Below, piece by piece: positions 32,584 through 37,390 of a DNA stretch of 64,000 nt. The notes under the pieces are model-generated. The model searched no databases and had not been told where the DNA came from. It worked only from the letters and a program-made list of their open reading frames with translations. Each line of letters opens with the position of its first letter. Within the stretch, counting starts at the first letter, position 1. Source of the DNA: Synechococcus sp. KORDI-49 (GTDB taxonomy: Bacteria > Cyanobacteriota > Cyanobacteriia > PCC-6307 > Cyanobiaceae); assembly GCF_000737575.1 (NCBI RefSeq), contig NZ_CP006270.1, forward strand, positions 1,863,163 through 1,927,162, given 5' to 3'. The position numbers and the translations under genes were made by a program.

Positions 32584-33129
32584 TCAACCGTGGCTGCGGG
32601 GTCCGGTTCTGTCGGTGCTGGCCAGATCCTCAAGGGTGCTCGTGCTTCCGATTCCCTGAAGTGCTGGAACGGGGGTGTCGTTGATCAGGGCGTCACCAAG
32701 CGCCTGGAGTTCCTGGGGTGTCCGCACGCCGATGGAACGACCACGAGGCTGACCGTCCGCTGCGAAGAGGTTCAGCTGTGGGATGCCGTTGACCTCGTAC
32801 CGGTCCACCAGATCGAGCCAACGGGGATTGTCGACATTCACCAGCACCACGTCGAGGCGATCCCGCGTGGATTGCTCCAGGCTCAGCATCGCCGGAGCCA
32901 TCTCCCGGCAGGCCTGGCACCAGTCGGCATAGAACTCGATCAGCGTCGGCTGGCCATTGCTGAGCGCGACATCAGGATCCAGAGAACGCCGTGCCAACTG
33001 CTCCATCGGGGATTCGCTCTGGAGACCACCGCGCAGAACAAGGAGGGCCAGCGCGAGCGCGAAGGCCACCGCCAGCAGCAGGCCTTTCTGGAACGCTCCC
33101 AGGCTGGCTGGTGGTGGGCTGGCAGACAT
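32584..33129 (-). CDS. txlA: Membrane-anchored thioredoxin-like protein TxlA
   Basis: 181 residues. One N-terminal transmembrane anchor (about residues 15-33) precedes a thioredoxin domain with active-site Cys71-Gln-Ala-Cys74 in FYADWCQAC and the cis-Pro segment NGIPQLNLF. It matches cyanobacterial TxlA/HCF164, which passes reductant across the thylakoid for cytochrome and photosystem assembly. The C-terminal tail (residues about 155-181) is Ser/Thr-rich and variable. It is divergent from the membrane protein at 33192. Confidence 0.9.
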   Translation of the reverse strand: MSASPPPASLGAFQKGLLLAVAFALALALLVLRGGLQSESPMEQLARRSLDPDVALSNGQPTLIEFYADWCQACREMAPAMLSLEQSTRDRLDVVLVNVDNPRWLDLVDRYEVNGIPQLNLFAADGQPRGRSIGVRTPQELQALGDALINDTPVPALQGIGSTSTLEDLASTDRTGPRSHG

Positions 33130-33191
33130 GACGGACTCCGTTCAGGTGCACTCTGACAGGGCTCTCCGAAGGCTGTGGCTAGCGTTTGGCC

Positions 33192-33695
33192 ATGCCGATC
33201 CTGAGCCTGTTCACGCTGCCCTTCCGGGCTCCACTGCTGGGGGGGCTCTTCCTTGTGGCGCTGGTGATGGGCAACCACTGGACCGTCAATCAGAGCATCT
33301 ACGCCCAGAACCAGTCGATCAGCGTGAGTGTGTTCTGGCTGATCCAGCTGATTCAGGTCATCGCCGTGGTGGTCGTCTTCACGATCCCTGATCTGCTGAT
33401 GCGTCAGGTGTCGATGCTGATGGCGTCCAGCCGCGTGATCAGCCTCGTGGTCACGCTGCTGATGGTGATCGTGCTGGGGCTGTACGTGATGCGGCTGCAC
33501 CGTCTGACCGACGTGATGATCCTGGCTTCAGCCGTTCTGCTCGCGCGGCTGGATCTGATCAGGATCGGCATCGTTCCGCCGCCCCTGCTCACCATCATCG
33601 GCTTCACGGCTGTTCTGCTCTCGGGGATCGGGCTCGGTTGTGCCCTGCCCAATCCGGCCGGCACGCTCCTCACAGAAGCGGCGGTCCCGCTCTAA
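33192..33695 (+). CDS. Polytopic membrane protein, unknown function
   Basis: 167 residues with four predicted helices (about 12-30, 42-65, 77-97, 101-150 as one or two). No recognisable domain. ATG at 33192 is chosen over a TTG two codons upstream. It shows the same T-centred hydrophobic codons to the end, and its last 168 nt overlap the lytic transglycosylase gene on the other strand in exact codon register. Confidence 0.72.
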   Translation: MPILSLFTLPFRAPLLGGLFLVALVMGNHWTVNQSIYAQNQSISVSVFWLIQLIQVIAVVVVFTIPDLLMRQVSMLMASSRVISLVVTLLMVIVLGLYVMRLHRLTDVMILASAVLLARLDLIRIGIVPPPLLTIIGFTAVLLSGIGLGCALPNPAGTLLTEAAVPL

Positions 33696-35678
33696 GTACC
33701 CGAGCAGATTGTCCAGAACCTTTTTGGTGTAGTACCGGGTCTCAGGGTATGGAATCCGTTCCACCCAGAGCTCCGGGTCTTCAGCCAGGGTCTGTGGTTG
33801 CCAGTCACTGACGGCGCCGGGACCTGCGTTGTAGCTGGCGACCACCAGCATCGGATCGCCTTGCCATCGCTCCATCAGCTGACGCAGGTACTGCGCGCCG
33901 AGGCGGATGTTCAGGCTGGGATCGGCGAGGTCGGCATCGCTCAGGTTCCGGCCTGCGAGCTCCTCGGCCGTGGCGGGCATCAGCTGCATCACGCCCCGCG
34001 CCCCGGCGACGGAGCTCACTCCAGGGGAGAAGCGTGATTCCTGCTTGCTGATGGCCAACAGCAGATCGTGAGCCACATCGTGTTGCTCCGAAGCCGCCAG
34101 AAAGTCCTTCTGGAACGGTCGTGGCAGCTGCTGGCGTTGCAGCAGCAGTCGTTGGGAGCAGTTCGGGGAATGCCACCGCAGGCTCAGGCGCCACAGACGC
34201 TCAAGTCCAGTCCAGGTGTTCCCGATCGCCAGTCGCAGACGTCCCTCCACCAGCTGCTCATGCCGGGACAGCGGCTCGGCGGTGTCGGTTGAGCTGCGCC
34301 ACTGCTCCCAGGCCTGATCGACGAGTCCGAGGCGCCAGAGCCTGTTGACCATGGGATCCGCACTGTTCAGTGGAGTCCAGACATCCGAAACCGAGGTGGA
34401 GTTGGAGCCCTCGCCAAGATCCAGGCCTGTCTGTTCCCCGAGACGGACCCTGGCCCGCCACCGGTAGTAACCGGAACGCTGCCCATCGATGAGCCGGCGC
34501 CAGATGCCGTTTGCGGCATCTGGATTGCCGAGCCGCTGTTCAGCAAGTCCATGCCAGAACAGCCGACGTCCCTCCAGCGGCTCGGGCATCGCTCCGTCCG
34601 GAAGAGCTGTCAACCAGTTTCTGGCGTCATTCCATGCGCCCTCGAGCAGGGCCTCTCGTGCCAGATCCCATTGCAGCTGCCAGCTCGCCGGATCATCGGG
34701 CCAGCGTGTCAGCACCTGGGCTCCCCCCCTGCCGGCAGCCAGCCGGACACGGGCGGCTGCAACCGCAGCCGATCGCTTCTGCAGGCTTTCGGGCAGGGCA
34801 TCCAGCAGGTCGGGGTCAGGCCGGAGTGGTTCGCTCAGCAGGCGTGCGGCTTCATCACTGGCGGAGTCCATGGGAAAACGCCGGGTGAGATCCAGCAGCA
34901 GCTGTTCCCCTTCCGAGCGCTGTTCACGTCCTCCAGCCAAGAGCGCGCGTCCGATGGCCAGAGCGGTCCCCGCTGCCGGCGGCTGCTGCTGCAGGCAGGC
35001 GAGCCCTGCCGTTCCGTCTCCCAGTTGCGCGAGACCACGGGCCAGCAGCTGACGTTGCTCCCGATCCGGTGCACCGGTGCCGTTGGCATCACAGGCAGCG
35101 CGAAGCCGCGCTGCGCTGCCGGGCCACTGCACTCCCCAGCGGGCCAGATGCAGAGCACCGCGGTGGCCATGCAGCGGATCCGCTTCCAGTGCCCGGGCCG
35201 TTGCCAGCGCGGCGGGATGACGCGGTTGGACTGTCAGCAGCTCCTGCTGCAAGAGGGGTTCGACCTCCCCGAGACGGCTTCGCCCCCAGGCTGAGGAGGC
35301 CTGTTCCGGGAAGCGTCTGATCTGATCCCGCCACAGCTTCAAAGACGTCTGGGAAGCCCCCAGTCGCTCTGCCGTTTCCGCCGCCAGGGCCAGAGACACG
35401 GCTGCCAATGGGGCCGTGCCCCAGCCTTGACCCTGCAGCAGCCGTCGGCGCCGGTTGAGGTCTCCAGCGCTGCGACCTGTCATCAGCAGAGCGGCCTCAC
35501 GGCGTTGCTCCGGGTCGAGCGATCGTCGATAGACGCGCCACAGCTCCGCATCCGTTGCCGTTGGGTCGAGCCGATGCCTGTGCTGGCGCAGCTGCTGCTG
35601 ACCAAGCATCACCGCCAGGAGACTCGCCGCGGCCGTCCCGATGAGCAGTGCGGCTCCGAGCCGGGACCCTGCCGCCAC
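33528..35678 (-). CDS. Soluble lytic murein transglycosylase (SLT domain)
   Basis: 716 residues. Cleaves peptidoglycan glycan strands to 1,6-anhydro ends. An N-terminal membrane/signal segment (about residues 6-25) leads to a long TPR-like helical superhelix. The catalytic SLT domain follows at about 530-650: ISKQESRFSPGVSSVAGARG with the catalytic Glu, GVMQLMPATAEELAG, then ASYNAGPGAV and ETRYYTKKVL. GTG at 35678 has GGGGTGAT just upstream. About 55 C-terminal residues (REQNSREADDGEQGRRNDAD region) are antisense to the convergent membrane gene and are probably not part of the fold. Confidence 0.9.
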   Translation of the reverse strand: MAAGSRLGAALLIGTAAASLLAVMLGQQQLRQHRHRLDPTATDAELWRVYRRSLDPEQRREAALLMTGRSAGDLNRRRRLLQGQGWGTAPLAAVSLALAAETAERLGASQTSLKLWRDQIRRFPEQASSAWGRSRLGEVEPLLQQELLTVQPRHPAALATARALEADPLHGHRGALHLARWGVQWPGSAARLRAACDANGTGAPDREQRQLLARGLAQLGDGTAGLACLQQQPPAAGTALAIGRALLAGGREQRSEGEQLLLDLTRRFPMDSASDEAARLLSEPLRPDPDLLDALPESLQKRSAAVAAARVRLAAGRGGAQVLTRWPDDPASWQLQWDLAREALLEGAWNDARNWLTALPDGAMPEPLEGRRLFWHGLAEQRLGNPDAANGIWRRLIDGQRSGYYRWRARVRLGEQTGLDLGEGSNSTSVSDVWTPLNSADPMVNRLWRLGLVDQAWEQWRSSTDTAEPLSRHEQLVEGRLRLAIGNTWTGLERLWRLSLRWHSPNCSQRLLLQRQQLPRPFQKDFLAASEQHDVAHDLLLAISKQESRFSPGVSSVAGARGVMQLMPATAEELAGRNLSDADLADPSLNIRLGAQYLRQLMERWQGDPMLVVASYNAGPGAVSDWQPQTLAEDPELWVERIPYPETRYYTKKVLDNLLGYLERDRRFCEERAGRIGQGTTEPDPREQNSREADDGEQGRRNDADPDQIQPREQNG

Positions 35679-35726
35679 ATCACCCCAGAATCTGATGCCA
35701 TTGTGTGGCCCAGGTTGCGACTGGCG

Positions 35727-35918
35727 ATGCCTTCCTCACGACCGGGACGCCGACAGCGCTGGCGCACGCTGCTGGTGCTGCTGATCGCCACGACGATCTG
35801 GGCCCTCCGTTGGCTCTGGCCGCTTCAGATGCTGCCGGGATGGGTGCTGGCCTTGATGTTCGCCTGGGCGGGCATCGAGTTGATCGTGCTCATCTGGAGG
35901 CCGCATCGCTGGCGTTGA
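35727..35918 (+). CDS. Small two-helix membrane protein
   Basis: 63 residues beginning MPSSRPGRRQRWRTLLVLL. A basic N-terminus is followed by two hydrophobic helices (about 14-30 and 36-55) and a basic end (WRPHRWR). No family recognised. ATG at 35727 is chosen; an in-frame GTG at 35703 would add eight residues. It diverges from the transglycosylase gene (48 nt) and lies 77 nt before glmM, possibly cotranscribed with it. Confidence 0.6.
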   Translation: MPSSRPGRRQRWRTLLVLLIATTIWALRWLWPLQMLPGWVLALMFAWAGIELIVLIWRPHRWR

Positions 35919-35995
35919 GGGCGGAGCTGCACCTGTCCCCGGACGACCGGTCCCCTGAAACAACGCCCGTAGCCTGAAGGCCACGATTGAGACTC

Positions 35996-37390
35996 ATGGC
36001 TCAAGCCGCTGTCCCGCCCATTGGACCCTCACTGGGTTCTTCGGTTCCCGGGTTCGGGACGGATGGGATTCGAGGCCGGGCTGGCTCGGTGCTCACCCCG
36101 GCGTTGTGCCTGCAGGTGGGCTACTGGTTCGGGCGAGCACTGTCCCAGCCAGGGCCTGTGCTGATCGGGATGGACTCGCGCAGCAGTGGCTCGATGGTGG
36201 CTTCGGCTCTGACGGCCGGTCTCACAGCGGCTGGTCGGGAGGTGTGGAGCCTGGGCCTCTGTGCCACGCCGGCCGTGCCATTGCTGATCGGTCAGGTCGG
36301 CGCTGCCGGCGGTCTGATGGTTTCTGCCAGTCACAATCCCCCGGAGGACAACGGCATCAAGGCCTTCGGTGCGGATGGCGCCAAGCTGGGGAGTGATCTT
36401 CAGGCCCGCATCGAAGCCGGTCTCCGCGGTGAAGCAGAGGTGGGTGACTCCGATGGGTCCCGCTGCGGTGCGGCGCATCAGCGTTCCGATCTGCTCAGCT
36501 CCTACAGCGAAGCTCTGCTGGCCTCGGTGGGTCCAAAACGGCTCGATGGTGTGCCGATCGTTCTTGATCTCTGCTGGGGTTCTGCGACGGCCTGTGGGGC
36601 CGACGTGTTCGAGGCCCTCGGAGCTGATCTGACGGTTCTGCACGGCAAGCCCGACGGAGCTCGCATCAACGTCGCCTGCGGATCAACCCAACTCGATCCT
36701 CTGCGGCAGGCAGTGGTCGAACGGGGTGCTGCGATGGGCTTTGCGTTCGATGGAGATGCCGATCGGATGCTGGCGGTGGACGGCCGCGGCCGCGTCGTGG
36801 ACGGTGATCACGTGTTGTTTCTCTGGGGCTCAGTGCTTCAGCAGCAGCAGACGCTCCCTGATCAGCGTCTCGTGGCGACGGTGATGTCCAACCTCGGTTT
36901 CGAGCGGGCGTGGCAGCAACGCGGAGGTCTGCTGGATCGCACTCCCGTGGGTGATCAGCACGTGCACGCTGCGATGGTCGCCAGTGGTGCAGCCCTTGGC
37001 GGAGAGCAATCCGGCCATATCCTCTCGGCATCCCATGGGCTCTGCGGGGATGGTGTGCTGACGGCCCTGCAGTTGGCCACGCTCTGTCACGCCCAGGGGA
37101 TCAGTCTTTGCGACTGGCTGGATCGGAGCTTCCAGGCCTTCCCGCAGAAATTGGTGAATGTGCGGGTTCCGGATCGCAGCCGTCGCAAGGGCTGGGCCAG
37201 TTGCCCTCCCTTGAGTGATGCGGTCCGCTCTGCGGAGGAGGCCATGGGAGACGAGGGGCGAGTGCTGGTGCGTGCCAGTGGAACGGAACCGGTGCTGAGG
37301 GTGATGGTGGAGGCTGCCGATCAGCGGATGGTCGAATCCTGGACGACCCATCTGGCTGCCGTCGCGGATCGGCATCTCAACGCTGCCTGA
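35996..37390 (+). CDS. glmM: Phosphoglucosamine mutase
   Basis: Interconverts glucosamine-6-P and glucosamine-1-P on the way to UDP-GlcNAc. 464 residues. FGTDGIRGRAG at residues 20-30, the phosphoserine in MVSASHNPPEDNGIKAFG (Ser112), metal site FDGDADRM, and C-terminal RASGTEPVLRVM are the four hexosephosphate-mutase motifs. ATG at 35996 is preferred to a TTG nine bases upstream. It converges on a BadF-type kinase (14-nt overlap). Confidence 0.95.
   Translation: MAQAAVPPIGPSLGSSVPGFGTDGIRGRAGSVLTPALCLQVGYWFGRALSQPGPVLIGMDSRSSGSMVASALTAGLTAAGREVWSLGLCATPAVPLLIGQVGAAGGLMVSASHNPPEDNGIKAFGADGAKLGSDLQARIEAGLRGEAEVGDSDGSRCGAAHQRSDLLSSYSEALLASVGPKRLDGVPIVLDLCWGSATACGADVFEALGADLTVLHGKPDGARINVACGSTQLDPLRQAVVERGAAMGFAFDGDADRMLAVDGRGRVVDGDHVLFLWGSVLQQQQTLPDQRLVATVMSNLGFERAWQQRGGLLDRTPVGDQHVHAAMVASGAALGGEQSGHILSASHGLCGDGVLTALQLATLCHAQGISLCDWLDRSFQAFPQKLVNVRVPDRSRRKGWASCPPLSDAVRSAEEAMGDEGRVLVRASGTEPVLRVMVEAADQRMVESWTTHLAAVADRHLNAA

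Follow-up and report, generated by a model that had tools for sequence, protein, structure and literature searches.

Convergent genes can come to overlap when a mutated stop codon lets one of them be read on into the other. Stop-codon mutation (SCM) as a source of convergent overlaps has been described in a survey of 58 prokaryotes (PMC2174442), where, according to the available text, the phase 123:321 accounts for 33% of 1218 convergent overlaps of at least 5 nt. The same text reports that SCM fits the convergent-overlap phases in E. coli and a sizeable share of the overlaps of >100 nt of all types, that cyanobacteria are richer in convergent overlaps than most bacteria, and that the variation in phase needs selective explanations besides SCM. 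The gene pair described here resembles the SCM overlaps of that text in being arranged tail to tail, in having codon facing codon, and in being ended by the neighbor's next in-frame stop. It differs from the genome-wide counts given there in that the stop shifts repeatedly within one genus, and that the neutrality of the tail has been tested. The SCM mechanism is therefore already known, and what is added is a new and well documented case with an unusually full evolutionary series. Among titles and abstract openings of papers available without subscription, we recognized no description of this gene pair.

The window is the whole 64,000-nt stretch of Synechococcus sp. KORDI-49 that was analyzed. 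The two genes lie on opposite strands with overlapping 3' ends, and the coordinates of their features are summarized in Table 1. Both are genuine genes, as indicated by the SLT match of the enzyme, the homologues of the membrane protein and the comparative loci. Re-reading of the sequence confirmed both genes, the 168-nt overlap and its exact register as set out in an earlier note. Within the overlap, codon positions 1, 2 and 3 on one strand face positions 3, 2 and 1 on the other (register 0). The membrane protein gene has a possible earlier start at an in-frame TTG at 33186.

Table 1. Features of the overlapping gene pair (positions in the window)
Feature	Position	Strand	Description
Membrane protein gene	33192-33695	+	167 aa; convergent partner of the lytic transglycosylase
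Lytic transglycosylase gene	33528-35678	-	716 aa, GTG start, Slt70-like
Antisense overlap, codon facing codon	33528-33695	both	168 nt
Transglycosylase stop TGA	33528-33530	-	Faces Ser TCA, membrane-gene alignment column 112
Run-on tail, polar	33531-33671	-	Transglycosylase residues 670-716; pLDDT <50 from 673
Cys669 codon	33672-33674	-	Close to the presumed native end
Membrane gene stop TAA	33693-33695	+	Faces a Leu codon, close to where the enzyme presumably once ended
SLT domain	33774-34097	-	Residues 528-635
Cys507 codon	34158-34160	-	Co-occurs with Cys669 in 43 of 47 relatives

The enzyme matches the SLT domain PF01464 with E = 3.9e-28 and 97.8 bits, against a cut-off of 21.3. E547 and S548 are invariant across 40 aligned enzyme sequences, and we take E547 of this E-S pair to be the catalytic glutamate of the SLT domain. 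Profile matches to Slt70-type structures reach E = 4e-39 over the C-terminal half, and Foldseek comparison with structures of this type gives E = 2.2e-14 with a TM-score of only 0.38-0.42. The predicted model has a mean pLDDT of 89.8, with 579 of 716 residues at 90 or above, and is confident to about residue 670. Judged by its sequence and predicted fold, the enzyme belongs with the Slt70-type soluble lytic transglycosylases (PDB 1QSA, 1QTE and 5OHU), with which it shares the SLT domain with its E-S pair and the helical scaffold. Unlike these it has an N-terminal helix (predicted for residues 4-32), a conserved Cys507/Cys669 pair and the run-on tail.

The cysteines bear on where the native enzyme probably ended. 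Of 47 long enzymes, 44 have Cys669 and 43 have both Cys669 and Cys507; both are missing in two. Cys196 and Cys228 are found in all 47. A Cys507-Cys669 disulfide that pins the native C-terminus is likely. Outside the genus, 39 of 59 enzymes end no more than four residues from the tail cysteine, 10 end within 5-10 residues of it and three end later, while the cysteine is absent in seven. The native end of the enzyme is thus probably near Cys669, and relatives that end at such an earlier stop are the 39 of 59 just described. The lost stop itself is not seen in a close relative: every one of the 29 scorable loci in the genus has an overlap, and divergence from the other genera is too great for the changed base to be named.

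The membrane protein has homologues in 46 of 118 related genomes (E ≤ 0.001), the matches within the genus being 42-59% identical apart from two marginal ones. Its family is represented in 206 of 400 genomes of the taxonomic family, 174 matching genomes lying outside the genus, with conserved stretches around PDLLMRQVSMLMASSR and LLARLDL. It is predicted to be helical, with nine helices, five of which have at least 20 residues. Searches of Pfam (E 0.001) and NCBIfam (E 0.01) gave no match, and neither did a fold search of the PDB, where the best E was 3.8.

We compared 90 loci that contain the enzyme, 31 within the genus and 59 outside it. The latter comprise 52 loci with both genes, drawn from the 174 genomes that match the membrane protein, and seven with the enzyme only. 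Counts for the genus omit G017, in which the enzyme frame is broken on the contig, and G008, which has no membrane gene, leaving 29 scorable loci. Wherever both genes occur, at 30 loci of the genus and 52 outside it, they are convergent (82 of 82), and in 8 of the 90 the enzyme has no adjoining membrane gene. In the genus the overlap is in register 0 at each of the 29 scorable loci and measures 33, 51, 63, 75, 87, 96, 102, 111, 126 or 168 nt; the exact 168-nt overlap occurs in nine genomes of at least two lineages. The earlier note would have yielded to a sequencing indel that restored an earlier stop. We found nothing in favor of an indel close to the enzyme gene's 3' end, whether introduced in sequencing or in assembly; it is vanishingly improbable and can be ruled out, because the frame enters the overlap unchanged at all 29 scorable loci, which come from different genomes.

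Outside the genus, the related genus g34 (22 loci) has 12 overlaps in register 0 (27-45 nt), seven in register 1 (8-59 nt) and three loci without overlap. In the six loci of genera g29 and g3 the genes overlap by 36-48 nt in register 0, so the register may predate the genus. In the remaining genera the spacing extends from a gap of 45 nt to an overlap of 56 nt, and all registers occur. Tails of at least 30 aa beyond the aligned core occur in 21 of the 31 loci of the genus, all 21 with an overlapping membrane gene, and in none of the 59 outside, where the longest tail is 24 aa. The proposal that a long tail exists only where the membrane gene overlaps is borne out by this distribution. Where the membrane gene is absent, the longest tails measure 24 aa (G008), 21 aa (G040) and 18 aa (G057). 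In G008 a stretch of 27% G+C (L010, 1290-1545) lies beside an intact enzyme gene, with in-frame stops and weak remnants of the membrane gene: the best tblastn match to a relative's protein has E = 0.021, a seven-residue match faces the end of the enzyme, and the 24-residue tail persists. The membrane gene of G008 has seemingly decayed, and its remnants would be a relic of the overlap.

How unusual is such an overlap for this genome? We called genes by codon usage, independently of the annotation, in the window and twenty 20-kb stretches of the same genome, giving 371 genes in 464 kb. There are 76 convergent pairs, of which 34 overlap, eight by at least 30 nt and one by at least 100 nt; the 168-nt overlap is the longest of the 76. 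Two further convergent overlaps in the window, both resting on these same gene calls, are 877-1653/1607-2746 (47 nt, register 2) and 49877-50926/50866-52383 (61 nt, register 1). A stop in the in-register antisense frame needs a sense TTA, CTA or TCA, and these three codons make up only 0.54% of sense codons in the sample, so a tail that begins with loss of the native stop in this register should be long. Indeed this frame is open for at least 168 nt opposite 75% of the 371 genes, with a median run of 394 nt from the 3' end. The other two registers have median open runs of 58 and 71 nt and reach 168 nt in 16% and 17%. As three quarters of the genes leave that much open, the length of 168 nt is ordinary; the pairing is unusual for the genome, but its length after loss of the native stop is not. 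Among convergent overlaps of at least 10 nt, register 0 is scarce (3 of 27; p = 0.013 if one-third is taken as a crude expectation), although open antisense runs in the sample are far longer in this register than in the other two.

The overlap could instead be kept for mutual regulation of the two mRNAs, through antisense pairing, through collision of polymerases or as an excludon-like switch that controls the wall-degrading enzyme. The convergent arrangement in 82 of 82 loci is in keeping with this. The spacing of the genes is not, since it varies between a gap of 45 nt and an overlap of 168 nt and the coding overlap is therefore not conserved; moreover the enzyme manages without an adjoining membrane gene in 8 of 90 loci, and overlapping ends are common in the genome (34 of 76 convergent pairs). 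To our knowledge there is no link between the functions of the membrane protein and the transglycosylase, nor are antagonistic functions known. Simple consensus scans of 33000-36000 found neither terminator-like nor promoter-like matches in the overlap, which also speaks against regulation; the same terminator consensus has two matches at 35834-35851 and 35967-35986. In Synechococcus PCC 7002, 107 of 177 termination events detected with rifampicin fall at 3'-3' overlapping transcripts, on the available text of PMC10349824, whose authors allow that there may be technical reasons for these. The likeness to such transcripts and to excludons lies in the geometry of the two genes. On balance we regard a regulatory role as improbable.

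The composition of the tail follows in large part from the register. The earlier note proposed that T-centered hydrophobic codons of the membrane gene face A-centered polar codons, and that this explains a tail rich in Asp, Glu, Asn, Gln and Arg. For the first four residues this holds: opposite each of the overlap's 24 T-centered membrane codons stands a codon for Asp, Glu, Asn or Gln. It fails for arginine, as 10 Arg residues of the tail derive from C-centered membrane codons and none from T-centered ones. The opposite hydropathy of complementary codons is the rule of Blalock and Smith, reviewed in PMC2206014, and as given in the available text it accounts for a polar peptide arising from the in-register antisense of a membrane protein; for the gene pair here it implies no binding between the two products. 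The polarity of the tail is 0.618, compared with a mean of 0.501 in antisense segments of like T-centered content, 4 of 123 of which are as high. Residues 673-716 have a predicted pLDDT below 50, with values of 29-44 per block of ten, which may stem partly from the shallow alignment of the tail.

We have examined whether this sequence is under selection in its own frame. Of 39 aligned relatives none is more than 57% identical to the enzyme, leaving no near strains for comparison, and we therefore compared the eight other genomes with a 168-nt overlap with one another. In columns 113-149 the fourfold sites of the membrane gene double as first codon positions of the tail; their divergence is 0.257, no lower than the 0.178 found outside the overlap, a ratio of 1.44 (bootstrap 0.83-2.34). 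pN/pS of the membrane frame is 0.22 in the overlap and 0.18 outside. That of the antisense frame is 0.77 in columns 113-149, the same as outside the overlap where it is non-coding (0.77), and 0.87 over the whole overlap. We thus detected no purifying selection in the second, tail-coding frame by pN/pS among the eight genomes. Two comparisons with five clade-mates lacking the tail there lean the opposite way: in columns 113-133 antisense pN/pS is 0.97 where tail-coding against 1.17, a small difference, and the fourfold ratio of 1.44 compares with 1.60. Since the divergence test comprises eight related genomes, weak constraint could be missed. As far as these genomes tell, the DNA appears to evolve as code for the membrane protein, and the tail follows.

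These data bear on the possibility that the tail itself is functional, for instance in electrostatic binding or in regulation of the enzyme. The same end point in nine genomes of at least two lineages might be read in that way, as might a polarity somewhat above that of matched antisense segments. Yet the tail is without detectable constraint and predicted to be disordered, it has other lengths in 20 of 29 loci, and tails of at least 30 aa are found in none of the 59 loci outside the genus. We consider a function of this kind very unlikely. A folded or conserved domain is likewise disfavored by the lack of constraint and the predicted disorder. The earlier view of the tail as a passive product of lost termination rather than a folded domain is supported by its distribution, its predicted disorder and the lack of purifying selection of its own.

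The stop of the enzyme has moved many times. In the scorable loci of the genus it always faces a TTA, CTA or TCA codon of the membrane gene, in nine alignment columns, four of which have Leu or Ser in at least 25 of 29 genomes. Column 112 ends the enzyme in nine of 29 loci. G004, whose enzyme is truncated at the edge of its contig, was left off the tree of 31 enzyme rows. On this tree at least 15 changes of the stop label are required, including one that separates the three outgroup rows. The genome of the window, G000, is placed apart from the other eight 168-nt genomes, but it has a long branch and its exact place is uncertain. The longest tail of the genus corresponds to 55 membrane-gene codons, and none of the 29 scorable loci passes column 112.

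The best explanation, to which we give a probability of about 0.8, is run-on after loss of a stop into the in-register antisense of the membrane gene, producing an unconstrained polar tail. A convergent pair that is kept in many genera of the family would have moved end into end. Within the genus the transglycosylase would then have lost its native stop just after Cys669, presumably by point mutation. Translation would continue antisense and in register, where stops are possible only opposite the rare TTA, CTA and TCA codons, and the enzyme would gain a disordered extension at its C-terminus, with an amino-acid sequence dictated by the membrane protein. Mutations in the membrane gene, often synonymous ones, would create or abolish a stop of the enzyme, and tail length would consequently vary by lineage. 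The tail is probably translated and tolerated, and very long tails may be weeded out. The overlap, its register, the shifting stop and the lack of detectable selection on the tail are direct observations.

Run-on of this kind leaves the question of length. The passive character claimed for the tail appears to hold for its sequence but not wholly for its length, as no tail in the genus exceeds 55 codons of the membrane gene and the overlap seems enriched in stop-facing codons. Tail length is probably not neutral, given this limit, the longer run that a purely passive tail would often reach and the recurrence of one stop column. A new point is that the end of the enzyme is set by rare Leu and Ser codons (TTA, CTA and TCA) of the membrane gene, apparently enriched in the overlap of this genus only. 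This leads to a tentative extension of the run-on explanation, not opposed to it, in which the tail is neutral in sequence but policed in length: long antisense tails would be harmful, and Leu and Ser codons of the membrane gene would be recruited as stops of the enzyme. With similar reserve, these rare codons may be favored in the overlap as opposite-strand stops that keep the tail short, column 112 acting as a back-stop.

With column 112 left out of the main count, 358 Leu/Ser codons fall in columns 113-151 of the genus and 31 of them are stop-facing, compared with 28 of 999 in columns 1-111. There is no such rise in the 52 loci outside the genus (17 of 530 against 57 of 1943). Had stops occurred at the rate seen past the ends of the enzymes, 13.8 of the 29 genomes would be expected to have one within 55 codons, and all 29 do, a comparison that ignores relatedness. 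Other A-ending codons rise alike in g34 (0.049 to 0.082) and in the genus (0.073 to 0.102), whereas stop-facing codons do not rise in g34 (0.035 to 0.031), whose GC3 is like that of the genus (0.75 and 0.74). Counted as origins on the tree per Leu/Ser column, the excess is 2.93-fold (p = 0.001) for stop-facing codons against 1.48-fold (p = 0.09) for other A-ending codons. At column 112, TCA encodes 17 of the 27 serines found there in the genus and 6 of 38 outside it; the 17 include eight genomes that stop earlier. In the 464-kb sample TCA provides 532 of 7798 Ser codons. The scarcity of register 0 among convergent overlaps of at least 10 nt (3 of 27) is also in line with policing. Against policing, the test was conceived after the data had been seen, and the contrast between origins of stop-facing and other A-ending codons amounts only to z ~ 1.8 by our own arithmetic. 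A-ending CTN and TCN codons are raised past the first stop too (10 of 119), where selection for termination should not act, and the available text of a eubacterial survey (PMC6764699) reports nothing compelling in favor of selection for additional stops downstream of genes. Taken together the data weakly suggest that the run-on is trimmed by selection, a reading we hold less likely than not.

The genus offers a clean natural series, in many lineages, of how long antisense overlaps originate and of what may check them: the sequence of the tail looks neutral while its length seems bounded. For annotation it carries a warning, in that the last 47 residues of the enzyme are probably not a domain. 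If the trimming is real, the choice of codons in one gene would be explained in part by the ending of another.
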